This document shows positions 3,256-25,303 of a DNA stretch of 29,424 nt, piece by piece (position 1 is the stretch's first letter; each line of letters starts with the position of its first letter). A program made the position numbers and the translations under genes. The stretch is from positions 1 through 29,424 of the IMG/VR virus record IMGVR_UViG_3300017917_001350, one strand, 5' to 3'. The notes beneath the pieces were generated by a model that saw only the letters and a list, made by a program, of their open reading frames with translations, made no database searches and was not told where the DNA came from. Source of the DNA: a virus.

Positions 3256-4305
3256 ATGGATACATTTTGTGTTTTACCGTGGTACAGTTCAGAATTACCA
3301 GACAATCGTCCCTGCTGTTGGATGGCAAAAGATGCCAACATTGATCAAGTAAAAAAAGACCTATTAGCAGGTGTAAAATCACCGGCTTGTGCCAAGTGCT
3401 GGCAACTAGAACAGCTGGATAAATCCAGTCGCCGACAGCTGGAAAATCAATCCCTAAATCACAAATTAAATCAAGGTCTGGAACAACTAAAAGAGTCCTG
3501 CGAACAGGGCCTAAATCAAACTGTTTTATATCAAATTACTACCAGTAACTTGTGCAATCAAGCCTGTGTCAGTTGTAACAGTAAAGCATCTACCAAGTGG
3601 GCCGAAATTGAAACTCGCATGACCATGAGCCCTTGGGTAGATATTGGTGTCAAAGTAGACTCCTGGATTCCATATCCTTATACCTATGTTGATCCTAACG
3701 ACCTTGATATCAATTATCAAACTGCACGTAGAATTTCATTCCTGGGTGGTGAGCCCTTTTATGATTCTGCTACCTTCCGTATCCTGGAAAAATTAATAGC
3801 AGCCAAAAATCACGACTGTTTTATTTCCATAGTGACCAACGGCAGTGTTACTTTAAATACCGCTCAAATTCAACTGCTACAACAATTTACAGATCTAAAT
3901 ATCTGCATCAGTATCGACGGTACTGGTCCTGTGTTTGAATACATGCGCTGGCCCGGCAACTGGAACCAGCTGGTTATCAACTTGAAACAATACAAAACCA
4001 TTACTGAAAACATCAGTGTCAGTTATACCATTAGTGCCCTGAATGTTTTTTACCACGAACAAACGGTTGAGTGGTTTGAACGCAACAATCTCAAATTCAA
4101 CTACAACACAGTGTCCTGGCCCTCATGGCTAGCCTTGTCAAACACTCCAACTGTGCTGAGAAACAATCAGTTTGTACAGGACTTTTGTAAAGACGATGTG
4201 GGCATTGATCACTTTGTAAAATACATTGAAAATCAAGATCGAGCCAAACGCATACACATCAAAGACTATATGCCCGAAGTGGCTGCCTTGATTGGCTTGG
4301 CTTAG
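3256..4305 (+). CDS. Radical SAM protein, Twitch-type
   Basis: A 349-aa protein with the radical SAM iron-sulfur motif CX3CX2C at C100, C104 and C107 (NLCNQACVSC). Family-typical parts follow: FLGGEPF for SAM contact, VTNGS, and ISIDG before EYMRWPGNW. The N-terminal part carries extra cysteine pairs (FCVLPW, CCW, CAKCW), as in Twitch-domain proteins that bind a second cluster. It probably cleaves SAM to make a radical; the substrate is unknown. It is a paralogue of the protein at 10790-12262 (shared RWP-NW and DY-PE motifs). It is one of only three plus-strand genes, and its TAG stop overlaps the TAA stop of gp41 tail-to-tail by four bases. The ATG was chosen because FCVLPW must lie at the extreme N-terminus. 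Confidence 0.85.
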   Translation: MDTFCVLPWYSSELPDNRPCCWMAKDANIDQVKKDLLAGVKSPACAKCWQLEQLDKSSRRQLENQSLNHKLNQGLEQLKESCEQGLNQTVLYQITTSNLCNQACVSCNSKASTKWAEIETRMTMSPWVDIGVKVDSWIPYPYTYVDPNDLDINYQTARRISFLGGEPFYDSATFRILEKLIAAKNHDCFISIVTNGSVTLNTAQIQLLQQFTDLNICISIDGTGPVFEYMRWPGNWNQLVINLKQYKTITENISVSYTISALNVFYHEQTVEWFERNNLKFNYNTVSWPSWLALSNTPTVLRNNQFVQDFCKDDVGIDHFVKYIENQDRAKRIHIKDYMPEVAALIGLA

Positions 4306-5699
4306 GTTTGTTTGATTTGCCCTAGCAAGGCTTTGAGTTTGTTGCTTTGTAGTTCAGCTGTGATCTTGCCTGAGTCTTCATCATCTTGTGGCGCCGTTGC
4401 CTGCATGGTACTCTTGGCTTTGATTGAATCCAACAAGTTGCTCTTGCCAAATGAGTTCACAGGACCTGCATCTTCGCCTGGATCTGTAATACGCATGGTT
4501 TCAATGTTGTAGTCCAGGTCAATCTTTTGTCCTACACCTGTTGAACTACGTGACTTCATACACTGAATTTGATACTTGCCACGCTCACGCATAGCACGAC
4601 TTGTAAAGATACCAAACACGTTATCTGCTGTATTGATCTTTGAAATACCACCCGAGATATGACTGTGATCAAATTCAACTTCTTCCACCGCTGAACGATT
4701 CAACTGCGAAGCTGTTACAAACAGCACATTGAGTTCTTTGGCCAAGTTACGCAATTCTTCTGAAACATACTTGTCCTTGACAAACAAGTCATTTGGGCTA
4801 ACCTTGGCACTAACCGGCATCAGCAAGTCCAAGTAGTCACACATGATAAAGTCTACCCGGAGTCCTGTCTGTACCTGTACTTCTTTGATGTATGCTCTAA
4901 TATCGTTGATGTTGCTCTGTGCTGGCAGAGCTTTGATACGATACTGCCCGGACTTCTTGCTCACAAGTTTGACTTTAAGTTCAGTTTGATCAATGTCTTT
5001 ACGAATCTCTTTGGTACTCATTCCTGCCAACATGGCATCTGTTCTTAGGGCACATAGTTCTTCACTAAGTTCTAAACTAATGTACACACCCGACAGTCCA
5101 GCTTGTAACCAGCTCAGTGCTATGTTCATCATAACAAGTGATTTACCAGATCCTGATCCACCAGCAAAGATGTTGAGTTCGCCGCGACTGAATCCGCCAT
5201 ACAAGATCTTGTCCATCTGTGGCCATCCTGTTGATACTTGTCCACCTGAGTTGAAATACTTGTTGATACGACTCTTAGGATCATCAAAGTAGTCTGTACC
5301 CATGTCCTTGGTCAATGAGATCTGTACTGCATCCTTGATCAACTTCTCTACAGGATCATACTCGCCCTTCTCCAACAAGTCTGCACTCTTAAGAATAGCA
5401 CGTTCTAGTTCTTGGCGTTTGGTAAATGATTCAAACTCTTGCATGAACCATTCACCATGTCCATCATTTAGTTCTGGAATGTCCTGTAGGGCAATACCTG
5501 TAGTTGCCTTGATTTGATCTCTTGTGGGCAAGGTCTTAAAGTCATTGCTGTGCTTCTTGATAAACTCGGCCACTGGACGCAAACTTCTATCAAAGTTCTC
5601 TGGATTGTAAATGTTCTGCACACGCACATAGCTTTCTGCGTCATGCAACATCATTTCCAAAAATAGTTTTTGTACGTCTAATGAATAGTCTTTAAGCAT
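4302..5699 (-). CDS. 41: Replicative DNA helicase gp41 (DnaB-type)
   Basis: A 465-aa DnaB-family helicase, about the size of T4 gp41 (475 aa). The N-terminal helical domain (about 1-130) is followed by the RecA-like motor domain with Walker A GGSGSGKS (180-187), a Walker B-like hydrophobic stretch ending in CDYLDLL and ASQLNRS, and a C-terminal arginine-finger region (MRERGKYQIQCMKSRSS). It unwinds DNA at the fork, with primase gp61 encoded two genes upstream. A near-consensus sigma70-like promoter ends six bases before the ATG and there is no SD sequence. The C-terminal tail after about residue 415 is hydrophilic and probably flexible. Confidence 0.93.
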   Translation of the reverse strand: MLKDYSLDVQKLFLEMMLHDAESYVRVQNIYNPENFDRSLRPVAEFIKKHSNDFKTLPTRDQIKATTGIALQDIPELNDGHGEWFMQEFESFTKRQELERAILKSADLLEKGEYDPVEKLIKDAVQISLTKDMGTDYFDDPKSRINKYFNSGGQVSTGWPQMDKILYGGFSRGELNIFAGGSGSGKSLVMMNIALSWLQAGLSGVYISLELSEELCALRTDAMLAGMSTKEIRKDIDQTELKVKLVSKKSGQYRIKALPAQSNINDIRAYIKEVQVQTGLRVDFIMCDYLDLLMPVSAKVSPNDLFVKDKYVSEELRNLAKELNVLFVTASQLNRSAVEEVEFDHSHISGGISKINTADNVFGIFTSRAMRERGKYQIQCMKSRSSTGVGQKIDLDYNIETMRITDPGEDAGPVNSFGKSNLLDSIKAKSTMQATAPQDDEDSGKITAELQSNKLKALLGQIKQT

Positions 5700-6495: not shown

Positions 6496-7061
6496 AATTT
6501 GTGTGTAAGTGGTCCTGGATGTGTTTGATCTTCGGCTCGATCAACAAATGATTCGTAATCAAATCCTGCTAGATTGTTGTGCAGTTGTTGATCAACAACA
6601 AAGCATTTAACTCCGTTGGGAATTGTGATTGGTGCTGTGTTGTATTCAAATTCTCTTAGTTGTAAAATTATCATGCCCTGAGTAATAGTTTCACGTTGTA
6701 AGTGTTCAATGATATTGTTGTTGGTTGCCAAGAAGCCAGCAGTAGCATAGCAATTCACACGATATGGTCCTAGCAGTTGATGCCAGCACTGTTCAAACTC
6801 AATGCCTACTCCAAAACTAAAACTGCTGCCAAACACACTGATGTCTGGATCTGCATAGTGTTCGGGTCCTCTATAACCCTGACTGTTGAACTGGTACCGA
6901 ACAGGGTGTCCTGACTGGTGACGTGCAAAATAATCAAATGTTTGATTTGCGTAGCGTCCAATCCAGTCTGGGTAGGACTTTACATAACCAGAATCATAGT
7001 CGCTTGGCAAGTTGTTTTTTTCTAAGTTCAATTTTGATTCGACTAGTTTCTCGGTGTTCAA
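6459..7061 (-). CDS. SGNH/GDSL-like hydrolase with unclear start
   Basis: About 200 aa. SVFGSSFSFGVGI resembles SGNH block I with Ser in the nucleophile position. Near the C-terminus DQTHPGPLTHKLWA resembles block V (Asp-x-x-His). Such enzymes hydrolyse esters, for example acetyl groups on glycans. No in-frame ATG exists before the conserved region. Possible starts are TTG at 7061 or two later TTG codons within the first 20 residues; I give the longest. The gene overlaps the primase 3' end by up to 68 bases. The ATGA at the primase stop is in another frame, giving only MILVM and stop, so a sequencing frameshift near the start is possible. Confidence 0.5.
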   Translation of the reverse strand: MNTEKLVESKLNLEKNNLPSDYDSGYVKSYPDWIGRYANQTFDYFARHQSGHPVRYQFNSQGYRGPEHYADPDISVFGSSFSFGVGIEFEQCWHQLLGPYRVNCYATAGFLATNNNIIEHLQRETITQGMIILQLREFEYNTAPITIPNGVKCFVVDQQLHNNLAGFDYESFVDRAEDQTHPGPLTHKLWAQQIKTQFNL

Positions 7062-7962
7062 GTATGGTCAACAAGGTTCCTACTCGACCCAGTTGTACAA
7101 CAGCATCATTGACATCCTTACAACCTTCAGGCCACTCAGGCATGCTTACTGCCCAGCCTAGTTCCACAGCACGATCTACCAGCTTCATGCCAGCTTCGTC
7201 TTGATCTGGAACTACTATAACGTCTCGGCCCAAACTTCTAATTAATCTAACTTGTGCGTCGTTGATTTCTGCGTGTAGCACTGCAAGCCCGTTAATGGCT
7301 AAGGCATCAAACACACCTTCTACCACAATAGCATACTGCCACGTATCACGTTGTAGGTCTGTGCCAAACACATAACCGTGTTGCATGTCGTTGATATACT
7401 TGGGTGTGCGGTCGTCTAAGAATCTAACAGCATGTCCTACCATGGTGTGATTGTAAGTAAACGGAATGATAATACCGGGCCGGTTTGAGTCAACCGGTTT
7501 CATAAATGGATAGTCAGTGGGCGCAGATCGACCACGCAAATAGCTCACATGCTCAGGATGTTCTGCGCTAATCAATTCTGAAAATGGCGGCAAGTCACGT
7601 TCTTCAAACGCAATACCTTGCAGTTCATTGCTGACTTGTTGACGCTCTGTTAGTAATCCAGCAATACTTTTGTGCTTAAGGCTTTCAAGATTGATACGTT
7701 CGATTTCTTCACCTGGTACATTCAACCACTGTAGCAGTTTGCGAGCTTTGAATGAGAGATTACGGCCTAACACAAAACTGGCAGTGTACCCACAGTTAAA
7801 ACAATGATAAGACCAAGAACCATCCGGTGTAGGTTTCAAGCCACCACGTTGCCGCTTGTCTCGATTCTCACCATTGTGCTCGCAACAAGGTGCGTTGAAA
7901 CTTATCCAACCTGAACTTGTTGACTTTTTCTTAGCAGGTAAAAAGGAGACCACATCTATCAT
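6994..7962 (-). CDS. 61: DNA primase gp61
   Basis: A 322-aa primase, similar in length to T4 gp61 (342 aa). An N-terminal zinc ribbon is built from C26/C27 with H29 and HCFNC (C54, C57). A TOPRIM domain follows with the acidic VVEGVFDAL (E215) and VVPDQDEAG (D253, D255), which bind the catalytic metals. It makes RNA primers at the fork together with helicase gp41. The ATG overlaps the stop of the SGNH gene upstream by ATGA. A sigma70-like promoter lies inside the end of that upstream gene, with TATAAT six bases before this ATG, so both coupled and leaderless translation are possible. Confidence 0.9.
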   Translation of the reverse strand: MIDVVSFLPAKKKSTSSGWISFNAPCCEHNGENRDKRQRGGLKPTPDGSWSYHCFNCGYTASFVLGRNLSFKARKLLQWLNVPGEEIERINLESLKHKSIAGLLTERQQVSNELQGIAFEERDLPPFSELISAEHPEHVSYLRGRSAPTDYPFMKPVDSNRPGIIIPFTYNHTMVGHAVRFLDDRTPKYINDMQHGYVFGTDLQRDTWQYAIVVEGVFDALAINGLAVLHAEINDAQVRLIRSLGRDVIVVPDQDEAGMKLVDRAVELGWAVSMPEWPEGCKDVNDAVVQLGRVGTLLTILEHRETSRIKIELRKKQLAKRL

Positions 7963-9862: not shown

Positions 9863-10240
9863 ATGAGCAATGACATTTTTAACAAATTAGCAGAAAAATA
9901 CCCGTTTATAACGCTCTGTGTCTATGCCTCTCAAGAATACGTGGGCATTGTGCAAAATCGTGATGATGTAATTACTACAATTTACGACTTTGGTAGCATA
10001 CAAGATCTAGATAAAAAGCGTCAGTTTTTAGAACTGGCCAACACCTGGTGGTGGGAAAGCAATCGTAGCATTCCTATTAACATATTTCTCAAAGATGAAT
10101 GGGATCCATTCAAAATGTATCTGCGTACATTTGTCAACAAGGATCTAGAAGTGTTACACGGGCCTGTGTGCAGTCTAAGCGAAATGGCTCGCAAAAAGTC
10201 CAAGCGTAAATCAATTACACTTGTACGTCGGATTGATTAA
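9863..10240 (+). CDS. Hypothetical protein, 125 aa, late-expressed
   Basis: I do not recognise the family. The N-terminal half alternates hydrophobic and charged residues (FITLCVYASQEYVGIVQN). The middle has WWWE, and the C-terminus is strongly basic (ARKKSKRKS), which would suit nucleic acid contact. It is one of three plus-strand genes, driven by a perfect late box at 9846-9853. Its last 26 bases overlap the end of the opposite-strand DnaE-like gene. Confidence 0.65.
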   Translation: MSNDIFNKLAEKYPFITLCVYASQEYVGIVQNRDDVITTIYDFGSIQDLDKKRQFLELANTWWWESNRSIPINIFLKDEWDPFKMYLRTFVNKDLEVLHGPVCSLSEMARKKSKRKSITLVRRID

Positions 10241-10793
10241 GCAGATTCATGTGCAGGGCTACCAAAGCCGCATAACTGATACTGTGGCTGTGCTTGAACA
10301 CAAAGCCCTTTGAATCATCACCATCCCAAACTGACTCAAACACTTCGGACCAAGGCTTGTTTTGTAAGTGTGACTTGCCCGGTCTAATAATAGCAATAAA
10401 TGCGGCCATTCTAGTAATGCTATCAGGACGCATGGTCTTGAGCAATTCTGTATAGTTGCCCACGTGTACCAATTTACTGGCCCAGGCTGGATCAGTCCAT
10501 AGTCGTTGCCAAGGTGGTTCCAAGGCCAACATTGCCTCATAGTGTTCAGGACTCTTGATCAGTTCGTACACACTCATGTTAAGCAAGTCAATTTTAAAGT
10601 AGCCCAGTTGTTCGGCTGTTTCATAATCTATTGCGGCACAATCGTTAATGGGATCATACGGAATGTCTGTAACATATACACCCGAGTTGTGCCTACGTAC
10701 CTGTCCTTGATGCAGTTGTCGTGCAGGAACAGCATCAATCAAGTTGAGCAAGATTGTTCTATCGGCCAAGTCTAAGTCAATGTCTGCGCTCAT
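10215..10793 (-). CDS. Miniature DnaE-like protein (C-family polymerase palm remnant)
   Basis: A 192-aa protein whose short blocks line up, in order, with bacterial DnaE/PolIII alpha. ADIDLDLADR (3-12) matches PDFDVDF with the two catalytic Asp (D6, D8). RRHNSGVYV (33-41) matches the RKHAGGVVI loop. AIDYETAEQLGYFKIDLLNM (54-73) matches the TQFD...VKFDFLGL block with the third catalytic Asp at D69. LLKTMRPDSITRMAAFIAIIRPG (118-139) matches the segment ending ALFRPG. FKHSHSISYA (166-175) matches FNKSHSAAYA. The PHP domain, most of the fingers and the beta-binding C-terminus are absent. Alignment is by eye against remembered E. coli DnaE. The start overlaps the radical SAM gene stop by ATGA; it is the last gene of the uvsW operon. 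Activity is unknown. Confidence 0.7.
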   Translation of the reverse strand: MSADIDLDLADRTILLNLIDAVPARQLHQGQVRRHNSGVYVTDIPYDPINDCAAIDYETAEQLGYFKIDLLNMSVYELIKSPEHYEAMLALEPPWQRLWTDPAWASKLVHVGNYTELLKTMRPDSITRMAAFIAIIRPGKSHLQNKPWSEVFESVWDGDDSKGFVFKHSHSISYAALVALHMNLLNQSDVQV

Positions 10794-12262
10794 AGTCGCT
10801 GCCTTGCCTGTTCTAGTTCAGGAATATAGTCTAGTAATTTTACACTTCTTGAAGCATCAAGTCTATCGTTAAAGGCAAAAAAAGTTTTGAGTTTGTGTAG
10901 ATCTACTGTGGGATCCTGTTCGTAATGCGAAATCAAACCATCTATGGTACTGGCCAACAAGGGATCGTTTTTGTAACAGTTTAGATTTCTAATCCGTTTC
11001 AATTGATCTACATCAAGATCTGGAAAGTTCAAGGCCGACAACATGTCATCATTTGACATGGCCAGTTGAGCATGAACCAATCGTTTAGGAAACTGCTGAT
11101 CAAAAAATTCCAACAGTGAATACAGCCGATTGATATTGTAGATTGAAACAGTCACATTGAAACTTACCACATGTCGTTGCGACAGGTACTGAACGTTTTC
11201 AACTATAGCCGACCAGTTGCTGGGCCAGCGTATATAATGATTGAGTTGATCTAGTCCATCAATGCTGACAATGAATTGAAAATTATCAAACTGTTCCAGT
11301 TGCTTTTTAAATCTAGAATTGATTTTGGTAGCATTGGTGTTGACTACAAATTCAAAGTCTGTTTTGTTTTGCTGTATGCAACGATCTAGAAAATCATAAA
11401 ACTCAGGCATGGCAGTGGGTTCACCACCGGCCACATACAACTTCTTGAGATTTGAAAAATCAATAAAATCAAAGTTGCTGTATTCGTCATCTAGTATGTC
11501 ATTAGACACCAAGTTGATTCTTTTGTACTCTCTAGCAATCAAATGACTGTAGCTTGGACTACAACTTCTACACTGTAGATTGCAAACATTACTAGGACGA
11601 ACTTCGTAGTACACTGGAGTTGTTATAGACTGCAAATCTTCTACACTAGATAAACCTAATCGATTGGCCCACTCTACTGTTTCTTGTTGTCGGGCACTGA
11701 TAATACCAGCTTGTTCTAACTTGTAACAGCTAGAGCAGTGATCGGGCACCAGTTCACCTTGCAACATTTTGGATCTAATGTCTAGATAATTTTTGTCTGT
11801 TTGAAAGTTGGTCAACTCAGTCAACTTGGTAATGGGTCTGGTTGATCTACAACAAACTGTGGTATTGCCATTCAAGGCCAACAGTTCTATAAAAGGAAAA
11901 ATACAAAAACTTGAATTGGTCTTGACAAGGTTTTCAAAAAAGTCTATGTCTTGTGCATAGCTGTCGTCTAAAAATTTACCATTCTTTAACTGCTTGACCA
12001 ATCTTACTGTGCGATAAAATGCATCTGGATGACTGTATTGTTCTTTGGGCTGATCCAACATGAGTACTTGATCAAATTCCTCAGCCAGTTCTACCAAACG
12101 ACCGTATTCAATGTCGTACACACTACTATGATACCAGCCATCGTGCAAGTCAGGCAGGACGCCATCCAGTTCCGACAGTAATCCGTGACATGCTGTGTCA
12201 GCTAGTTCGCGAGTTCTAGCATCTGTGTCTTCGGTATTGTTGCCCAGGCATAGTACACGCAT
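10790..12262 (-). CDS. Radical SAM protein, Twitch-type, with N-terminal extension
   Basis: A 490-aa protein with CX3CX2C at C227, C231 and C234 (VCNLQCRSC), then VAGGEPT, VNTNAT and VSIDGLDQL before YIRWPSNW. A cysteine-rich pre-domain (FCIFPF, VCCRS, CSSC; about 118-179) fits the auxiliary-cluster region of Twitch proteins. The first about 110 residues, absent from the paralogue at 3256-4305, look like a separate alpha/beta domain. The start is ATG 12262 within TAATG, overlapping the upstream stop by one base; a TTG two codons earlier is less likely. It couples to the DnaE-like gene by ATGA. The substrate is unknown. Confidence 0.83.
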   Translation of the reverse strand: MRVLCLGNNTEDTDARTRELADTACHGLLSELDGVLPDLHDGWYHSSVYDIEYGRLVELAEEFDQVLMLDQPKEQYSHPDAFYRTVRLVKQLKNGKFLDDSYAQDIDFFENLVKTNSSFCIFPFIELLALNGNTTVCCRSTRPITKLTELTNFQTDKNYLDIRSKMLQGELVPDHCSSCYKLEQAGIISARQQETVEWANRLGLSSVEDLQSITTPVYYEVRPSNVCNLQCRSCSPSYSHLIAREYKRINLVSNDILDDEYSNFDFIDFSNLKKLYVAGGEPTAMPEFYDFLDRCIQQNKTDFEFVVNTNATKINSRFKKQLEQFDNFQFIVSIDGLDQLNHYIRWPSNWSAIVENVQYLSQRHVVSFNVTVSIYNINRLYSLLEFFDQQFPKRLVHAQLAMSNDDMLSALNFPDLDVDQLKRIRNLNCYKNDPLLASTIDGLISHYEQDPTVDLHKLKTFFAFNDRLDASRSVKLLDYIPELEQARQRL

Positions 12263-12936
12263 TACCAACCTGCCTTGGTCAACATTTCTCTAGCATACTC
12301 GTAGTCAGCTGGATAGTCTTTGAACTTGCGCATCCAAAAGTCTGCATCAATTATACTCCATATCATGGCTACCTGTGTTTGATCTAGCTCATTCAAGAAC
12401 TTCTGTCCGCTATCGCTACAGTAAATTACCCAGGGACTGATACGTCCTGTGCTGACAGCATAGGTCATGACATTGTCGTTGCCGTAGCGTAGGCAATCTT
12501 CGGGGTTGGCATTGTTCTTCTCGCCCCAATCAATACTGAACTCAATGGCACGGGCCAAGGCATCATTGACATTTTCCACTTTCAAATAGTCTTGTAAGTA
12601 TTCACTATAGACTGAATCTTTGGCCCAGTGGTCTAACTTCTTGTTTTGTTTTAAGACCCAGCGAGTAAACTGTTCTGGATTAATAGCCTTAACATCTACA
12701 CAATAACGACCAAACTTGACAAAGGCCTTGTAGTAAGGACTGTCAGCAAAGTCATCGAATGTTTTTAGTTTGGCACTACCTTGTGTTAGTTCATAGAACT
12801 TGATGTAGGCCTGAAACCCTAGACGCACTCCTGCTTCGTCTTTTTCCATGCGACGACGTCTTGGCTCGCACGAATGCACAGCCAAGCTAGACTCTTTTAT
12901 AAAGTCTTTCTTGCAGTACTGACAGGTATATGTCAT
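12262..12936 (-). CDS. Hypothetical protein with N-terminal zinc-finger motif, 224 aa
   Basis: The N-terminus reads YTCQYCKKDF, then SSLAVHSCEPRRRR: C5, C8, H21 and C23 form a compact C2HC zinc-finger-like site followed by a run of arginines, which suggests nucleic acid contact. The remaining 190 residues are Trp/Tyr/Lys-rich and mainly helical, with no motif I know. Both ends overlap neighbours (GAATGA upstream, TAATG downstream), so it is made as part of the uvsW-downstream operon. Homologues in other T4-type aquatic phages are likely, but I cannot name them. Confidence 0.6.
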   Translation of the reverse strand: MTYTCQYCKKDFIKESSLAVHSCEPRRRRMEKDEAGVRLGFQAYIKFYELTQGSAKLKTFDDFADSPYYKAFVKFGRYCVDVKAINPEQFTRWVLKQNKKLDHWAKDSVYSEYLQDYLKVENVNDALARAIEFSIDWGEKNNANPEDCLRYGNDNVMTYAVSTGRISPWVIYCSDSGQKFLNELDQTQVAMIWSIIDADFWMRKFKDYPADYEYAREMLTKAGW

Positions 12937-14372: not shown

Positions 14373-15842
14373 TTATTTTATCTTCATCCATTCCAACTTC
14401 TCTTGTGTAAATGGATAGTTGGCCTCTTTGTAAAACTGTTTACGTTTGGTCAAGTGTCTTTTGGCAAATTTGCAGGTGCTTGTGACGTCCCAGATTTGGA
14501 CGAAATCTTTATCTTCAGCCTTTCGTATTCCGCGTCCGATGCTTTGGATAACCCTAACAAATGATTTGCCAGGCTCCACAAGAACAAGATTAAAAATACG
14601 GGGAATGTTAATACCCACAGCAGCAATACCATAGGTAGCAACAATAATTTTATCATCACTAGTAGCAATTTCGTCATACTCATCTTGTCTTACCTTTCCT
14701 TTTGTTGCGCCCGATACAAACACAGCCTTCTCACCTAAGCGTTCAACTAGAGCATGCCCTGGCGCAATACGATCTACCAGCACTAGAGTATTGCCTGTAA
14801 GGTTAACTTGTCTAATTAGATCAGCCATAGTGTCCAAGCGACCTTTTTCTTCCAGCAAGTATTTCAATTCACTTTGATAATCCTTGTATTCCACATGATC
14901 AACCAGCTGTACAATGTTCACATGGCATTGTGCTAGTACACCACGATCCTGTAGTTCACTGGCCGACAGTTGACTGATTACTGGACCAATTGAACATAGC
15001 AGGGCCTTGTATTCATAATCTTCTTTGGGTACTGTGCCTGTCAGGCCCCAACGAATAGGAATACGACTCATTATACCTGTGAGTAATGTTTTTAAAGCAT
15101 CTGCTTTGGCCATGTGTACTTCGTCAACCATAACACAAACCACACCTTCAATAAAGTCACCTATGGTACAGTCTGTGTCACCTGATTTAGTATTTTTTAA
15201 CAAGACGTTTAGACTTTGCCAGGTACAGATGGTGTGTGTTTTACCCCACTCTTTACGATCGCCAAAGTAAACACCTACATCAAGTCCTAGATTTTTGTAG
15301 TCTGCTTCGGTCTGCGTTACCAAACTCTTATTAGGCACAATAACAATGCTACGACCATATCGTTCTACGCTGTGACTCAAGGCCGCGGTCATGATAGTTT
15401 TACCAGCACCCGTGGCCACTTCCTGCAAGCATTGTGGATTCTTTAAAAACTCATTGATAATCTTAACTTGATAATCGCGCAACATGATGGGTTGGCCGGC
15501 CTGTGGGTGTGTAGCGGGCCATACACGATCACTGAATGTATCTTCTGTAACTGGTTCAAAGTCAAATGTTGTGCTATAATCTCGTTGATCATCTAGTTCA
15601 ATATCGTAGTTGAAGTTTTCTAAGATAGGAATAATTTCGGGCAACAGGTTTGTATACGTGCTACCACCTAACTGGAAGTAGGCTACCTTGCCGTCCCAGC
15701 GTCCTAGTCTAACTGCGGGTTGATATCTGGCTCCGGGTATTTCGTATTTGAAAGTGCTGACCAGTTTCTTTCTAGCGTCTAGTTCAAGACCTTCTATCTT
15801 GATATTAACTTCGTCTTTAATAACGATTGTAGCTGTTCTCAT
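14373..15842 (-). CDS. uvsW: UvsW-type SF2 helicase
   Basis: A 489-aa SF2 DNA/RNA helicase, close to T4 UvsW (503 aa). The N-terminal substrate-binding domain includes RLGRWDGK (45-52). Walker A is ATGAGKT (143-149), with a Q/RDYQ motif before it (about 122-125), Walker B DEVH (240-243), LTGT (about 267-270) and motif VI QSIGRGIRK near the end. UvsW unwinds D-loops and branched DNA and helps switch origin-dependent to recombination-dependent replication. Its ATG overlaps the preceding stop by ATGA. A strong promoter of the next operon starts at its stop codon. Confidence 0.93.
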   Translation of the reverse strand: MRTATIVIKDEVNIKIEGLELDARKKLVSTFKYEIPGARYQPAVRLGRWDGKVAYFQLGGSTYTNLLPEIIPILENFNYDIELDDQRDYSTTFDFEPVTEDTFSDRVWPATHPQAGQPIMLRDYQVKIINEFLKNPQCLQEVATGAGKTIMTAALSHSVERYGRSIVIVPNKSLVTQTEADYKNLGLDVGVYFGDRKEWGKTHTICTWQSLNVLLKNTKSGDTDCTIGDFIEGVVCVMVDEVHMAKADALKTLLTGIMSRIPIRWGLTGTVPKEDYEYKALLCSIGPVISQLSASELQDRGVLAQCHVNIVQLVDHVEYKDYQSELKYLLEEKGRLDTMADLIRQVNLTGNTLVLVDRIAPGHALVERLGEKAVFVSGATKGKVRQDEYDEIATSDDKIIVATYGIAAVGINIPRIFNLVLVEPGKSFVRVIQSIGRGIRKAEDKDFVQIWDVTSTCKFAKRHLTKRKQFYKEANYPFTQEKLEWMKIK

Positions 15843-19343: not shown

Positions 19344-19351
19344 TATTTATC
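19344..19351 (-). promoter_or_regulatory. Late promoter box GATAAATA
   Basis: Minus-strand GATAAATA, a 7-of-8 match to TATAAATA, overlapping the TGA stop of the glycosyltransferase gene upstream. It lies 19 bases before the ATG at 19324, with an AGGAG Shine-Dalgarno between. Confidence 0.65.
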
Positions 19352-20078
19352 ACTGCCAGTGTTGAACTATCACAGGATCCTGTATTTCGCTGGGTTTGGG
19401 TTTTCCATGGAAAATCAACACACTTGTAGGGTCTAGCACTGTGGTTCCTGTGTTGGGTCGTAAATGACGTTTTTGTATAAAATTGTATCCACCGTCCAAG
19501 CATTGCCAACGCCAACTTTTAACACGCTCGATGTCAAAGAACTGTCTTTTTGCGGGTGCAATAATTTCAGTTATGTAGTCTTGATCGCCGTTGTATTTTA
19601 ACAGTATTTGATCCAGCTTGTTTTTTTGAAAATCTTCCCAGACATAGTTGAATTTTGTTGTGTCAAACCACATGATGCTGGAATTCACTGAATAGTTGTT
19701 TGGGCGCCATAGTCGTTTAAAGTCGCGTACAGTCCAAAAGTAATTTAGATTTAACTCACATATCCAGTTGATATTGTCCACAATCACTGTGTCTAGATCA
19801 AAGTACAACAAAGGACCTGCATGGAACTCCTGGTTAAAAATTTGCATTTTGTACCACCAACTTTGTTTGGGGCCACCAATGCCCCAGTCTATCAACTCAT
19901 GCTTGATATAGGGTGCTGGCACTGTTCTGTCTGCTTCTGTGTAGACATGTAATCTAACCTCTGCGCTGAGATGCCTGGACAACATGTTGTAGAGTCGATC
20001 TACATATTGCCAGTCGTATCCATCACCGTGTATTACACAGGCGCAGTCGATAGGGCCGGAAGTATTCTTTGTAACCAT
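19350..20078 (-). CDS. Putative GT-A glycosyltransferase
   Basis: A 242-aa protein. LYFDLDTVIV (91-100) has the DxD metal/nucleotide-sugar motif (D94, D96), followed by SSIMWF and NGDQDYI, as in GT8-like enzymes. The C-terminus (LIFHGKPKPSEIQDPVIVQHW) parallels that of the protein at 23314-23970 (LIFRKPSSKP, KKHWL), so the two are paralogues. The ATG at 20078 has an SD (AAGGAA) and overlaps the upstream gene by 46 bases. The sugar and acceptor are unknown. Confidence 0.75.
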   Translation of the reverse strand: MVTKNTSGPIDCACVIHGDGYDWQYVDRLYNMLSRHLSAEVRLHVYTEADRTVPAPYIKHELIDWGIGGPKQSWWYKMQIFNQEFHAGPLLYFDLDTVIVDNINWICELNLNYFWTVRDFKRLWRPNNYSVNSSIMWFDTTKFNYVWEDFQKNKLDQILLKYNGDQDYITEIIAPAKRQFFDIERVKSWRWQCLDGGYNFIQKRHLRPNTGTTVLDPTSVLIFHGKPKPSEIQDPVIVQHWQ

Positions 20079-20893
20079 GTTCCTTGTTTGATTTCTTGTA
20101 GGGTATATTCAGTGTGACATATCTCAACCAACCACCGGTTTCGATCTATAAAATAAGGTTGTTCTATTTCAGCATAACTTACTGACACAGAGTATGCTAG
20201 ACTGGATCTATCTACTATAGGACGTGTGCCTGAAATTGCAGCCTGTGTGCCTGGGCCTGAGTTGTAGTTGACCACAGCATGACAATCAAAGTGCATGTCA
20301 AAACTGTCATAGGTATTGGCCAAGGGATGTGGCTCTTCAAACACCGTGTCCGCTGGCAGTTGTTTTAGGTCTAAGGGAGATCTAGGATGAGGACGTACAA
20401 CAATCGGGCGATCAGTAAACTGACGAATCCTAACTATCTGTTGATTGATCCAATCTTCTACACTTGAAAGATCTGCCACTTGTAAACTTTTTTTATGCTG
20501 TGCAGCTATCAGGATCTCTGGCCTATTAAATGCAGGCACGGCCAAACTAACACCCAGTTTCTTGGGTCGGTCCCAATCTAAGTTTTCAGTGTGTCCATAG
20601 TAGCCATCAGCTGACACATTGTTTACGCTGATTTTCCATGTGACGCCTCGATACAGTGCGCCAACTTCAACAATGATTACTGGCAGGCCCTGGCGTCGAT
20701 AATGATTGTATATTTCTTGATTGGTTTTCATTCGGCCATTCCACAGCACCGACCATATCACAGCCGCATCTGAGCTCAGTGAATTCTCTTGAAGTTTTAC
20801 GCCAGCTCGACGGAATACATCAAGCAGAGCTTCCATTACCGGTCCGCTGTTCAATGCACACTGTTGAGGAAAATATGCTATAGTTTTTATCAT
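20033..20893 (-). CDS. Putative GT-B / capsule-synthesis-like glycosyltransferase
   Basis: A 286-aa protein. IRQFTDRPIVVRPHPRS (156-172) and HAVVNYNSGPGTQAAISG form the donor-binding half typical of GT-B capsule or teichoic-acid-type transferases. The first half is a less conserved Rossmann-like domain. It is a paralogue of the protein at 21651-22565, sharing RPIVVR-HP, YNS and a C-terminal EIK-G/EVKSG helix. The ATG is six bases from a TTAAATA box that belongs to a palindrome shared with the divergent gene at 20909. No SD is present. Confidence 0.65.
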   Translation of the reverse strand: MIKTIAYFPQQCALNSGPVMEALLDVFRRAGVKLQENSLSSDAAVIWSVLWNGRMKTNQEIYNHYRRQGLPVIIVEVGALYRGVTWKISVNNVSADGYYGHTENLDWDRPKKLGVSLAVPAFNRPEILIAAQHKKSLQVADLSSVEDWINQQIVRIRQFTDRPIVVRPHPRSPLDLKQLPADTVFEEPHPLANTYDSFDMHFDCHAVVNYNSGPGTQAAISGTRPIVDRSSLAYSVSVSYAEIEQPYFIDRNRWLVEICHTEYTLQEIKQGTWLQRILPALSTAPV

Positions 20894-20894
20894 G

Positions 20895-20906
20895 TTAAAT
20901 ATTTAA
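20895..20906. promoter_or_regulatory. Palindromic bidirectional late promoter TTAAATATTTAA
   Basis: The 15-bp gap between two divergent start codons is almost entirely a perfect 12-bp palindrome, TTAAATATTTAA. It offers a TTAAATA late-type box on each strand, six bases before the minus-strand ATG (20893) and seven bases before the plus-strand ATG (20909). Neither gene has a Shine-Dalgarno. Confidence 0.55.
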
Positions 20907-20908
20907 CC

Positions 20909-21682
20909 ATGCTGATGCCACCCATATACGGAACTTGCAATCAAAACAGTTTTTTCATTTATGCTGCTTGCGACTCTGTTTACTTTGATGAATTTGGTCC
21001 GGCCTTTATCACAAGTATTCGTCGCAATACCCAGGCTGGTGTTCATCTACATCTGTTTAATCCAGACCAACGGCAGATTGAGCATTGTTACGCATTAGGT
21101 GCCACAGCAACTTGGGAATCTGTTCCATTGTCCTTGTTTGAACCTGCGGCTACAACACTATTAAGTCCAACCGAACTAGATCGAACCAAGAACGCCATGA
21201 TCAAAGGTGGCGATCAAAACTTGTTGGAACGCATGCAGAAAACTTATTATGCCTGTGCTAGATTTATACGACTGGCCGAACTGTTTGACCCTACAGTAAC
21301 TACCTTAGAACTGGATGTGGATGCTGTTGTTAGAAAACCCATACCCCCATTGAGTGAAACCTGCGATTTTTACATTCATCACATTGCCGGTAAAAAGGCA
21401 AGATTCTTAGCTGGAGGTCTTTATCTGTGTGCTAACTCACATGGTCAGCAATTTTTAACTGAGTATGCTCTGCAACTTAGAAACTATATTGAACGAGATT
21501 ATATCTATTGGGGATTGGATCAGGATCTGCTAGATCCAATAGTGCCGCGCTATCAGCATCAACAGTTGCCCATGAGTTTGATTGACTGGAACATGCAACC
21601 CGACAGTTGTGTTTGGACAGCCAAAGGTACACGCAAAGATCTAGAAATATTCAAGGCTGAGAAGAACAAATATACTGTTTGA
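20909..21682 (+). CDS. Putative GT-A-fold glycosyltransferase, plus strand
   Basis: A 257-aa protein beginning MLMPPIYGTCNQ. FFIYAACDSVYFDEFGPAFITSIRRN is a typical nucleotide-sugar transferase N-terminal strand-helix. TLELDVDAVV (132-141) carries DxD (D136, D138). AGGLYLCANS and GLDQDLLDP resemble later GT8-like blocks. The start is ATG 20909 or 20915, set by the TTAAATA box; the longer open reading into the opposite gene is not used. The 3' end overlaps the opposite gene at 21651 by 32 bases. Confidence 0.7.
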   Translation: MLMPPIYGTCNQNSFFIYAACDSVYFDEFGPAFITSIRRNTQAGVHLHLFNPDQRQIEHCYALGATATWESVPLSLFEPAATTLLSPTELDRTKNAMIKGGDQNLLERMQKTYYACARFIRLAELFDPTVTTLELDVDAVVRKPIPPLSETCDFYIHHIAGKKARFLAGGLYLCANSHGQQFLTEYALQLRNYIERDYIYWGLDQDLLDPIVPRYQHQQLPMSLIDWNMQPDSCVWTAKGTRKDLEIFKAEKNKYTV

Positions 21683-22565
21683 TAGCAGCCCATAAACGGC
21701 CGCTCTTAACTTCTTCATTGCTCCAGTGTATGTTGGCAATTTTGTCAAACCAAGGACCGCGGTCAGGCAAAGGTGGGCTTTCAATTTGACTTAGGTTAGC
21801 AAAGGCAATGTCTGCGGCCCAACTGTGCGTGGGATCTGTGACATAAACAGGAACACCTTCGATGCCGGCTACAACATTAGGAGTTGAATTGTAGCCCACA
21901 GCACACCAACAGTTGACCAACTCATCACGTATGTTGGGTTTAGTGCTTATCGCAATGGTATTTCCATATTTCTTCTGTATTTTTTCTATTTGCTTGTCTC
22001 TTTTTCCGTCGCCAGGGTGCATACGCACTACAATAGGACGATTACTGTATTGTCTAATTTCAGCAATGGTTTGGTCCAGCCAGACGTCTTGATCGTTTCC
22101 AAACAGGTTCCAGCCCTTGGGACGTTGACACAAGATCAATATGTGTTGACCACTGGCACGCCAGGGACGTGGATTAACACGATGCCAGTTAGAATAAGTT
22201 TTCCATTTGGTTCGATCTAACTCGCCAAAAAAGTACACGCCAGTATTGGGATACACACTATTCAAACTGTATCTATGCCACTCGTGTTCGGGTCTGGCAT
22301 AATGTAAAATGTTGCTGTCAACAAATATTCTAGGAGTGTTCTGTAATTCTAGTTGTGTAATAATCTTTTTACGGAAATTATCTTCTAATGTGTAACCCAA
22401 TACAAATCCAGCATCCAAGGGTTGATCTGGCAGGGCATTGCCATGATAATCAACAACTTCGTCACCATTAACCAAGACTCCTGCTTTGAAGTTGTCCATC
22501 AACATTGTTTTGTTGCTAAACTTGGCAGGATTACTGATTGAGTTATAAAAAATTCCTACTTTCAT
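21651..22565 (-). CDS. Putative GT-B / capsule-synthesis-like glycosyltransferase
   Basis: A 304-aa protein with IRQYSNRPIVVRMHPGDG (170-187) and AVGYNSTPNVVAGIEGVPVYVTDP, the donor-side features of capsule-type GT-B enzymes. The middle CQRPKGWNLFG and WLDQTI blocks are shared with phage and bacterial relatives, as far as I can recall. It is paralogous to 20033-20893. The ATG at 22565 overlaps the upstream GT25 stop (ATGA). It is the last gene of the operon that begins with gp32/uvsX. Confidence 0.68.
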   Translation of the reverse strand: MKVGIFYNSISNPAKFSNKTMLMDNFKAGVLVNGDEVVDYHGNALPDQPLDAGFVLGYTLEDNFRKKIITQLELQNTPRIFVDSNILHYARPEHEWHRYSLNSVYPNTGVYFFGELDRTKWKTYSNWHRVNPRPWRASGQHILILCQRPKGWNLFGNDQDVWLDQTIAEIRQYSNRPIVVRMHPGDGKRDKQIEKIQKKYGNTIAISTKPNIRDELVNCWCAVGYNSTPNVVAGIEGVPVYVTDPTHSWAADIAFANLSQIESPPLPDRGPWFDKIANIHWSNEEVKSGRLWAAIKQYICSSQP

Positions 22566-23317
22566 TTGTCCCAATCCTTGCTTTTTGTCATACTAATGTT
22601 GCCTTCTTCGGGCAAGGTATTGCGACCCATTAGATGATTGTGAATTTGTACAGGACAAACAAAGTGATTGATAGCATTGTCAGCTGGATACCAATAGGGT
22701 TTGTAAAACTTTATAAGTCCTCTAGCTGCATCAGGTTTGATTGCATAACCACTGGCACCAGGCATGCTAAAGTTGGTCCACTTGGCTGCATACGGTGTTC
22801 CTGTTGGTTCTTCCAAATAGGTTTTCCACGGTTCTTTCAAAAAAGAAGTCTTGCCTAAGGAAAGTATTAACACTCCTTCAAATTCTACTGGCTGATAGTT
22901 TCTATAAAACAACACGTCATCTTCAAAAATCATTATGGGTTTATTGAGATCCACACAGCGTTCCCACAAACTGTAGTGACTGTAAAAACAACCTATGACT
23001 CCCGGACGACTCATCTTATCTGCGTCATCACCGATGGGCATTCTTTCGTAGACTTCGGCACGATGCTTTACAAAAAAATTGTCATGATACTGTTTGCGTA
23101 ACATTTTTTTGATTTCATCTTCGTTTAATCTACGACTTTTGATACTGTAAGGATACAGAGTTTTGCCTGACTTGCGAGCCAGTTCTACTGCTTCTTGGCC
23201 GTTGGTTCCTGCAAATAACTCAGCATCTATGCCATACTCTTTGAGTTGGTCAACCATGTATTCAGCATGATCTACGCTGTGCGGTCTATCAGGAAGATGT
23301 ATTACAAATGCTTTCAT
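22562..23317 (-). CDS. Glycosyltransferase family 25-like protein
   Basis: A 251-aa protein matching the GT25 (LPS galactosyl/glucosyltransferase) layout: MKAFVIHLPDRP at the start, GVIGCFYSHYSLWERC (106-121), PIMIFEDDV (127-135) with the acidic motif, and a later GASGYAIKP block. In bacteria GT25 enzymes add hexoses to LPS. Here they may modify host or virion glycans or the phage DNA. The ATG at 23317 overlaps the previous stop by ATGA. Confidence 0.82.
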   Translation of the reverse strand: MKAFVIHLPDRPHSVDHAEYMVDQLKEYGIDAELFAGTNGQEAVELARKSGKTLYPYSIKSRRLNEDEIKKMLRKQYHDNFFVKHRAEVYERMPIGDDADKMSRPGVIGCFYSHYSLWERCVDLNKPIMIFEDDVLFYRNYQPVEFEGVLILSLGKTSFLKEPWKTYLEEPTGTPYAAKWTNFSMPGASGYAIKPDAARGLIKFYKPYWYPADNAINHFVCPVQIHNHLMGRNTLPEEGNISMTKSKDWDK

Positions 23318-23970
23318 AACCAATGTTTCTTTACTAAGTCGTGTGTGGGCATGTTAGAAGGTTTACTACTTGGTTTTCTAAAGATCAATATTCTTGTTTC
23401 AGACAAATCAAGTTGTGCATCTCTCTTGCTTGCTATATGTATCCAATTTTTAGGACACAGATCATTAATGAAAACATGTTCAGTCATGGAACTTATTACT
23501 GCTTGATCTCCTACCAATCGTTCTGCGCCTTGGTTGGCTGTGCTGTAACGGTCTTCGTACCAGGTGTGATTGAGAGCATACGAATTAAAAATGCCTGAAT
23601 AGTCACCAGACCAAAACATAATGGCACTACTGCTTATGTTGTAATCGGGATCTCTCCACATGACAAATTTGTCTTGTTCAAGGCATCGTTCGACCAATTC
23701 ATCAATGTTGTTGCAAATTAATGTGTCTAGATCAAGATACAATACCGGAGTGTCAAATAGGCCTGCTTGGAATAGTTGTAGTTTGGCCCAATATCCTGAG
23801 CCCAATGATCCTAATGGTATGCGCTCACACTCAACCGCGCAATCACTAAGACAAACAAAACGATGCGGAATAGTTAGATGTCGCTTGACTGCATTTTGTA
23901 GTTTATCAACCCAGGTAGCATCGTAACCAACCTTACCATCTTGGCGCAACACACAGGCCACTGTTATCAC
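23314..23970 (-). CDS. Putative GT-A glycosyltransferase
   Basis: A 218-aa protein. VLYLDLDTLICNN (76-88) has the DxD motif (D80, D82), preceded by GYWAKLQLF and followed by ISSSAIMFW and GDQAVI, the pattern also seen in the paralogue at 19350-20078. The start codon is GTG 23970, forming a GTGA overlap with the upstream stop. The position within an unbroken coupled series supports the annotation. Confidence 0.75.
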   Translation of the reverse strand: MITVACVLRQDGKVGYDATWVDKLQNAVKRHLTIPHRFVCLSDCAVECERIPLGSLGSGYWAKLQLFQAGLFDTPVLYLDLDTLICNNIDELVERCLEQDKFVMWRDPDYNISSSAIMFWSGDYSGIFNSYALNHTWYEDRYSTANQGAERLVGDQAVISSMTEHVFINDLCPKNWIHIASKRDAQLDLSETRILIFRKPSSKPSNMPTHDLVKKHWL

Positions 23971-24647
23971 TCAATGCCTCGTTGTTGACAGTATTCAGTA
24001 AGTATGCGTTCCTTGTGCCATTCTTCACCTTGTGGCGTGGCAGCAAATTCGTGAAAGCAAGGAGTTCCTAATGTATAGTGTAACAGTTTTGCGTCAGGAT
24101 TAGGTCCTAGTTCGTCGGGCAACCAGTTCCATTCCTTGGGTAATTCACCAATTCGACTATCGTCAATCCAGGTAAAGCGATGTAGGTATGCACCAGTTGA
24201 GTTTTCAATAAACTCTGGTGTAAGTTTGTGATTAGGTTGATTGCCACAGTTCCAAAGTATTACACTGGACCAATTTTTACGTGGGTAATTTTCATTCTTG
24301 CTACCAAGATACTTTTCTGTCATCTTGGTTTTGTAGTCATGTTTAACTACCATTACATCCATGTAGTTATTGCGTAGATCCCATAACTTGGTAATGTCGT
24401 CGCGAACAACCATGTCGCCATCAATAAAGATAGCCCAACCCTTGTAACCCATCAAGTGTGGAACCAAAAAACGACTGTAGATAAATTGATTGCTGCCGTC
24501 GGTATGAGTTTCAGTGTAATCTTTGAACAGATTCAACGCCAATGGAATTATGTTTACAGGTTGGCTAGCATGTCTTATTATGCTGTTAGCACACACATGA
24601 AATGCTATTGCTTCTCGAGGGTCATAACCTATAAAAATTGGAATCAT
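23967..24647 (-). CDS. GT8-like glycosyltransferase
   Basis: A 226-aa protein beginning IPIFIGYDPREAIAFHVCANSI, a GT8-like opening. AIFIDGDMVV (72-81) is the DxD-type motif (DGD). NYPRKNWSSVILWNCGN and LLHYTLGTPCF follow in the expected order, as in glycosyltransferases of aquatic T4-type phages. It is coupled at both ends (ATGA and GTGA). The substrate is unknown. Confidence 0.8.
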   Translation of the reverse strand: MIPIFIGYDPREAIAFHVCANSIIRHASQPVNIIPLALNLFKDYTETHTDGSNQFIYSRFLVPHLMGYKGWAIFIDGDMVVRDDITKLWDLRNNYMDVMVVKHDYKTKMTEKYLGSKNENYPRKNWSSVILWNCGNQPNHKLTPEFIENSTGAYLHRFTWIDDSRIGELPKEWNWLPDELGPNPDAKLLHYTLGTPCFHEFAATPQGEEWHKERILTEYCQQRGIE

Positions 24648-25303
24648 GGATTGTATATATCACGTTTTAGTTTTGCAACTAGCAATTCACCTTCCTGGGC
24701 TATCCAATCTCTGTAACCACGTTTATCTGCTTTCCAACGGTCGCTGGATTCTATGTAGGTTTGATCACGTGCAGATTTATCCATGGAATAATGCAGGTGT
24801 TCAACTACAACATCGTCCAAGCGATATATGTTTCCTAGATGTTCACCTAGATAGCGCCATACAGTATCTGTAAAAAAATGGTGGCATGCAGGAATACCAA
24901 ACCAGCCAATGGCCCGCACTAGATCTCCGCCAACACAAGGATGAGTGGGCTGTGCAGTTTCTTTGGCACCATCGTTGGGATATGAAATGTCGGTTGAGCC
25001 GGCTTTTTCAATCAACAGTTGATCCCACAAAGGTGTTTGAGGAACTAGATCATCGGCCAAAAACCCATACCAGGCTTCGTCAGGATGCTGTTGATACATT
25101 TCATTTATTGATCGACTAAGTCCAATTCTAGGACCAACGTGTACGGAAAATTCCTTGGGCCAATCTAGTTGCGTTAGTGTAGCAAGCTCAGGATCATCGG
25201 CATCTAGTCTAACATAAACAGGACTAGTTGCTTGTGTATCATGCCAGGCCTGGATAAATCTTTTACAGTTGTCTGGCCTGGACCTTGTTGCCAATGCCCA
25301 CAT
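24644..25303 (-). CDS. GT2-like glycosyltransferase
   Basis: A 219-aa protein with the GT2-like GLSRSINEMY helix (61-70), the acidic GFLADDLVPQ (80-89; D84, D85) and a VGGDLVRAIGWFG acceptor-side block followed by HHFFTDTVWRYLG. The C-terminus (SSDRWKADKRGYRDWI) is typical of phage members. The ATG overlaps the methyltransferase stop by one base (TAATG). Confidence 0.75.
   Translation of the reverse strand: MWALATRSRPDNCKRFIQAWHDTQATSPVYVRLDADDPELATLTQLDWPKEFSVHVGPRIGLSRSINEMYQQHPDEAWYGFLADDLVPQTPLWDQLLIEKAGSTDISYPNDGAKETAQPTHPCVGGDLVRAIGWFGIPACHHFFTDTVWRYLGEHLGNIYRLDDVVVEHLHYSMDKSARDQTYIESSDRWKADKRGYRDWIAQEGELLVAKLKRDIYNP

Follow-up and report, generated by a model that had tools for sequence, protein, structure and literature searches.

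What might a phage use a protein of 192 amino acids for, when that protein carries the active site of the bacterial replicase DNA polymerase III alpha (DnaE), and is such a protein an enzyme in its own right, a relic, or part of something larger? The question is raised by an open reading frame in a 29,424-nucleotide viral sequence, IMG/VR record IMGVR_UViG_3300017917_001350 (the window, in its entirety), where a first-pass annotation made from the sequence alone had noticed five short DnaE-like blocks in the right order. The open reading frame, which starts with ATG, is a genuine conserved gene, and its five blocks are not the product of chance. It belongs to the PHROGs family phrog_11778, annotated "DNA polymerase" (E 2.2e-52), and matches full-length phage DnaE (phrog_405) only weakly (2e-6). 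Homologues are found in 63 GenBank phage records and relatives in more than 500 IMG/VR contigs, and the window protein, from a metagenomic relative, is about 29-41% identical to the proteins of isolated phages. The gene is under strong purifying selection, with a dN/dS of about 0.06 relative to its closest relative. Our preferred reading, to which we give a probability of roughly 80%, is that it encodes the C-terminal subunit of a split minimal phage C-family polymerase, auxiliary to a B-family replicase. The feature and the motifs within it are as follows.

10215-10793, minus strand: C-terminal half (C-half; phrog_11778) of a split miniature Pol III alpha, comprising reduced fingers and the metal-binding part of the palm; assigned by family, fold, and residue conservation
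10770-10784, minus strand: DIDLD, with D4, D6, and D8 equivalent to E. coli D401, D403, and D405; invariant in 106/106 homologues
10680-10691, minus strand: H35-x-x-G38, equivalent of the KHAGG loop; H35 and G38 invariant in 106/106
10587-10595, minus strand: K67-I-D69, equivalent to E. coli K553-F-D555 (third catalytic aspartate); invariant in 106/106
10374-10385, minus strand: R137-P138-G-K140, counterpart of the RPG segment in DnaE; R137, P138, and K140 invariant in 106/106
10272-10298, minus strand: FKHSHSISY (residues 166-174), equivalent of DnaE FNKSHSAAY; H170 invariant in 106/106

Fold and active site of the C-terminal half

A single-sequence Pfam search with the C-half returns only a weak match to the finger domain (0.058), and profile and fold searches were required to expose its DnaE homology. 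The best PDB match of a 91-sequence C-half profile is E. coli Pol III alpha (E 0.003), the AlphaFold2 model of the C-half (mean pLDDT 92.7) retrieves Pol III alpha chains as its top thirteen Foldseek matches, and VIA-align 2 aligns 178-191 residues of the model with fifteen DnaE or PolC entries (Z 6.3-10.0), no other fold scoring above 3.3. As modeled, the C-half possesses the C-family (DnaE) palm fold with its three catalytic aspartates, and the five blocks noticed in the first-pass annotation, together with the fold that it implied, are borne out by each of these searches.

To gauge residue conservation we used 106 non-redundant C-half homologues, with pairwise identity below 80%. Invariant in all 106 are D4, D6, D8, H35, G38, P45, K67, D69, W95, R137, P138, K140, and H170, and the C-subunit motifs of the phrog_11778 group (DIDID, HxxG, KxD, RPxK, and FxKxH) are present in the window protein. 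The E. coli alpha sequence PDFDVDF spans residues 400-406, which places D4, D6, and D8 at D401, D403, and D405, and D69 at D555. In E. coli alpha, catalysis is carried out by D401, D403, and D555. D69 had thus been named correctly as a catalytic aspartate, but the pair given as D6 and D8 should be D4 and D6, D8 being the equivalent of D405; D6, D8, and D69 had been proposed as the residues whose conservation to check, and they are as invariant as D4.

What has been lost is as clear as what has been kept. Only 26 residues separate D8 from H35 in the C-half, compared with 105 in E. coli, which indicates loss of the thumb domain, and the mid-fingers between RPG and FNKSH have shrunk from about 115 residues in DnaE to about 28. 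The HhH, clamp-binding, and OB regions are missing, the C-half model ending at E. coli residue 781 of 1160. No PHP domain (PF02811) match was obtained in any of 13 C-half phage genomes, the control being found in 14/14. The stripped C-family palm of the earlier description, with PHP, clamp-binding, and OB domains gone and most of the fingers lost, is supported.

The partner protein and the split site

Where, then, is the nucleotide-binding GRGS motif of DnaE? It is absent from the 192-amino acid open reading frame; in relatives it lies on a partner protein. A second small open reading frame (Pfam DNA_pol3_alpha, PF07733), distant from the C-half gene, is present in 10 of 11 C-half phage records. 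This N-terminal half (N-half) is phrog_11127, about 171 amino acids long, and the GxGRGS nucleotide-binding motif is invariant in 49/49 N-halves. The N-half open reading frames contain WGVGRGSSVASYVLF, which is the DnaE palm segment found directly before PDxDxD, and terminate at EFLR, EFLK, or EFLN. In the N-half model (mean pLDDT 84.6), residues 73-171 match the same solved C-family polymerases as the C-half, at Z 7.2-12.0, and no DnaE region aligned with residues 1-72 in that structure comparison. The first 70 or so residues of the N-half (L197:6001-6216) are a phage-specific extension.

The N- and C-half structures were predicted as separate single chains, and their coverage of solved polymerases is contiguous and complementary: 279-393 and 399-781 in E. 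coli alpha, 305-413 and 418-808 in the M. tuberculosis enzyme, 296-455 and 460-841 in that of T. aquaticus, and 824-964 and 969-1304 in PolC, for the N-half and C-half respectively. The two ranges adjoin without overlap, about five residues being skipped in each comparison. According to these models, one DnaE palm is cut in a loop. The nucleotide-binding motif and the metal ligands end up on different chains, and neither half would therefore be expected to be active alone. Since the GRGS half is found on a separate protein, the C-half is half an enzyme rather than a self-contained one, and the stand-alone miniature polymerase of the first-pass annotation has to be given up. Together the halves amount to about 360 residues, and in the structure alignments E. 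coli residues 1-278 and 782-1160 have no counterpart in either. No intein sequence is seen at the split, where the halves end with EFLR/EFLK and begin with DIDID, leaving no room for one.

The two halves strictly co-occur. Both are present in 61 of the 63 GenBank phage records, 60 being identified by BLAST with the N-half of phage RaK2 (all 60 of these fall within the 63 C-half records) and one more, Alishewanella phage Slicko01 (OQ508956, 141 kb), by profile; the profile test behind this count took in Slicko01 and a 109-kb record, the third C-half record without a BLAST match being that of Slicko01's relative Slickus01. In the 109-kb record, an unverified one of a phage type of about 350 kb, the profile detected no N-half. 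The N-half is also present in the near-complete IMG/VR relatives G001, G003, G004, G017, G039, and G040, and six IMG/VR contigs of at least 317 kb have both halves. There are long IMG/VR contigs with an N-half and no C-half (e.g., 286 kb and 250 kb), which we take to be incomplete. The window is a 29-kb fragment, too short to include the partner gene, and its partner is accordingly inferred from relatives. The N- and C-half distance matrices of 20 phages correlate (r = 0.83), as would be expected of any two core genes, and we give this correlation no weight as evidence of contact between the halves.

Gene neighborhood and possible role

The genes around the C-half, and their conservation, are as follows.

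4302-5699, minus strand: DnaB-like replicative helicase (gp41-like); downstream of the C-half in 54/54 relatives
6994-7962, minus strand: DNA primase (gp61-like); downstream of the C-half in 54/54 relatives with enough sequence
9863-10240, plus strand: convergent 125-amino acid gene (phrog_11637) that overlaps the C-half gene at the latter's 3' end; present in 119 of 132 close relatives and 62 of 78 distant ones
10790-12268, minus strand: radical-SAM gene whose stop overlaps the polymerase-half start; lineage-specific
12262-12936, minus strand: conserved upstream neighbor (phrog_11058); at most 3.5 kb from the C-half in 97/97 close relatives
14373-15842, minus strand: UvsW-like DNA helicase upstream of the C-half; gene order as in RaK2

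The position of the C-half is fixed: uvsW comes first, followed after a few genes by the C-half, the convergent phrog_11637 gene, and then the primase and helicase. The phrog_11637 gene may be functionally tied to the polymerase half. Coupling to the radical-SAM gene had been suggested for the window, and the stop of that gene does overlap the polymerase-half start by four bases (ATGA), but it is a neighbor in only 2 of 132 close relatives and a functional coupling can be dismissed. In RaK2, Paride, and G001 the N-half has a slot of its own, its gene immediately preceding that of the clamp loader, and in Slicko01 the two halves are at most 12 kb apart with the clamp loader in between. Elsewhere in the window, positions 19350-25303 hold a run of open reading frames that by eye resemble glycosyltransferase or sugar-related genes.

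A B-family polymerase is present in each complete genome checked. The polymerase domain (PF00136) is found in G001, G003, G004, and G005, with none seen within the 29-kb window, and the exonuclease domain (PF03104) is found in 13/13 genomes with a C-half. The coexistence of a stripped C-family palm and a B-family polymerase, proposed in the first-pass annotation, is supported by the genomes of relatives. A DnaQ-like exonuclease was considered as an obligate third subunit and rejected, PF00929 being found in just 7 of 13 genomes and absent from the close relatives of the window.

How might the two chains work together? The N-subunit, from its separate gene near the clamp loader, would supply the GxGRGS helix-turn, which in this polymerase superfamily binds the phosphates of the incoming nucleotide, and the C-subunit would contribute the three catalytic aspartates and the reduced fingers. 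From the homology and fold of both halves and their conserved slots, we infer that they assemble physically and polymerize, rebuilding a single palm of the Pol-beta type, about 360 residues in size and devoid of PHP, thumb, HhH/clamp-binding, and OB domains. With thumb and PHP missing, it is doubtful that the pair could bind DNA by itself, and most likely it would work distributively, as a second polymerase alongside the B-family replicase. It could be recruited at the fork near the primase-helicase and clamp loader and serve in primer extension, hand-off, or gap filling and repair; it is gene order that suggests such a role, the C-half lying by the primase-helicase and the N-half by the clamp loader. 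A more ambitious proposal, which we advance tentatively and would not bet on at even odds, is that the pair is the smallest active C-family DNA polymerase known, thumbless and of about 360 residues, dedicated to Pol-alpha-like primer extension or gap filling as the second polymerase of a T4-type replisome run by the B-family enzyme. If the pair does polymerize, it would define how little of the bacterial replicase suffices, it would present a Pol-beta-type active site cleanly divided between two chains, and the phages of this group would have a mixed B-family and C-family replisome.

Could the active site serve some other purpose? Members of the Pol-beta superfamily often change substrate, and a nucleotidyltransferase derived from the DnaE palm that no longer extends DNA primers, adding nucleotides instead to RNA, protein, or a small molecule, would be in keeping with the loss of the thumb and most of the template-gripping parts. 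However, the fingers keep conserved RPG and FxKxH segments, and the genes for both halves sit among fork genes, which makes this alternative improbable. We consider slightly less probable still that the protein is a dead or regulatory mimic of DnaE, which poses as host Pol III alpha, titrates replisome parts or sites, and shuts off host replication. The phage owns a B-family replicase, and the clamp-binding, PHP, and thumb regions needed for ordinary replication have all been lost, as such a mimic would allow. Yet a decoy needs neither metal ligands nor a GRGS motif on a partner, and both are invariant across very diverse phages; two complementary genes are retained together; and the regions lost are precisely the host-interacting ones, for Pol III alpha contacts epsilon through its PHP domain and the clamp and tau through its C-terminal parts. 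As for the small pieces being decaying relics of a full DnaE, much of DnaE is indeed missing, but the low dN/dS, the invariant active site, the hundreds of IMG/VR relatives, and the fixed gene slot refute decay for practical purposes, as the first-pass annotation had surmised from the metal-binding residues.

Relationship to other split C-family polymerases

The split minimal polymerase reading places the window protein in a known group. Iyer et al. (2021; PMC7824862) described a split minimal DNA polymerase III alpha in group 2.2 jumbo phages, encoded by distant genes, with an N-terminal nucleotide-binding part and a C-terminal Mg2+- and template-binding part, alongside a family B polymerase, and raised the possibility that it models an ancestral replicase. 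Earlier genome papers had noted one small or "truncated" alpha (PMC5259590; PMC6102473). A stripped C-family palm in such phages is therefore not the surprise that it had been called. The window protein is likewise phrog_11778, does not differ basically from the published pair, and is a divergent metagenomic member of this already described split Pol III alpha of large T4-type phages. To the picture of PMC7824862 we add the exact split site, the loss of the thumb, the residue conservation, and the occurrence in Slicko01, a 141-kb non-jumbo phage. We found no experimental work on the split mini-DnaE pair, which has been described from genomes.

Compared with bacterial DnaE and PolC, which are single chains of about 1160 residues, the phage pair shares the palm fold, catalytic aspartates, HAGG-like loop, RPG, and FNKSHA, with GRGS on the partner; it has about 360 residues in two chains and is without PHP, thumb, HhH/clamp-binding, and OB domains. 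The DnaE of Cellulophaga phage phi13:1 (KC821625, 31606-35206, gp038 and gp039) is also split between GRGS and PDxDxD, in the palm loop where the mini pair is divided. That DnaE is full-size and its genes are adjacent, unlike the stripped mini pair with its distant genes, and the phi13:1 split is presumably an independent fission; it indicates that a break in this palm loop is tolerated elsewhere. The DnaE of actinophages Beyoncage, Poultress, MacGully, and MontyDev is split at the PHP/palm boundary instead.

Cyanobacterial DnaE is encoded by two distant genes, and its product is joined by the Ssp DnaE split intein. This is reminiscent of the phage pair in that one C-family polymerase derives from two distant genes, but the split site is different, the product is full-size, and protein splicing is involved; the phage halves leave no room for an intein.

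A further DnaE-like protein is encoded in IMGVR_UViG_3300010354_000736 (L143:12809-14518, minus strand), whose locus is closely related to that of the window and has a mini C-half as well. This protein is unsplit, lacks the PHP domain, is 566 amino acids long, and its gene adjoins the gp41 helicase gene. The presence of both on one contig may reflect an assembly chimera; the best GenBank match of the 566-amino acid protein is in a 484-kb uncultured phage, at 37%.
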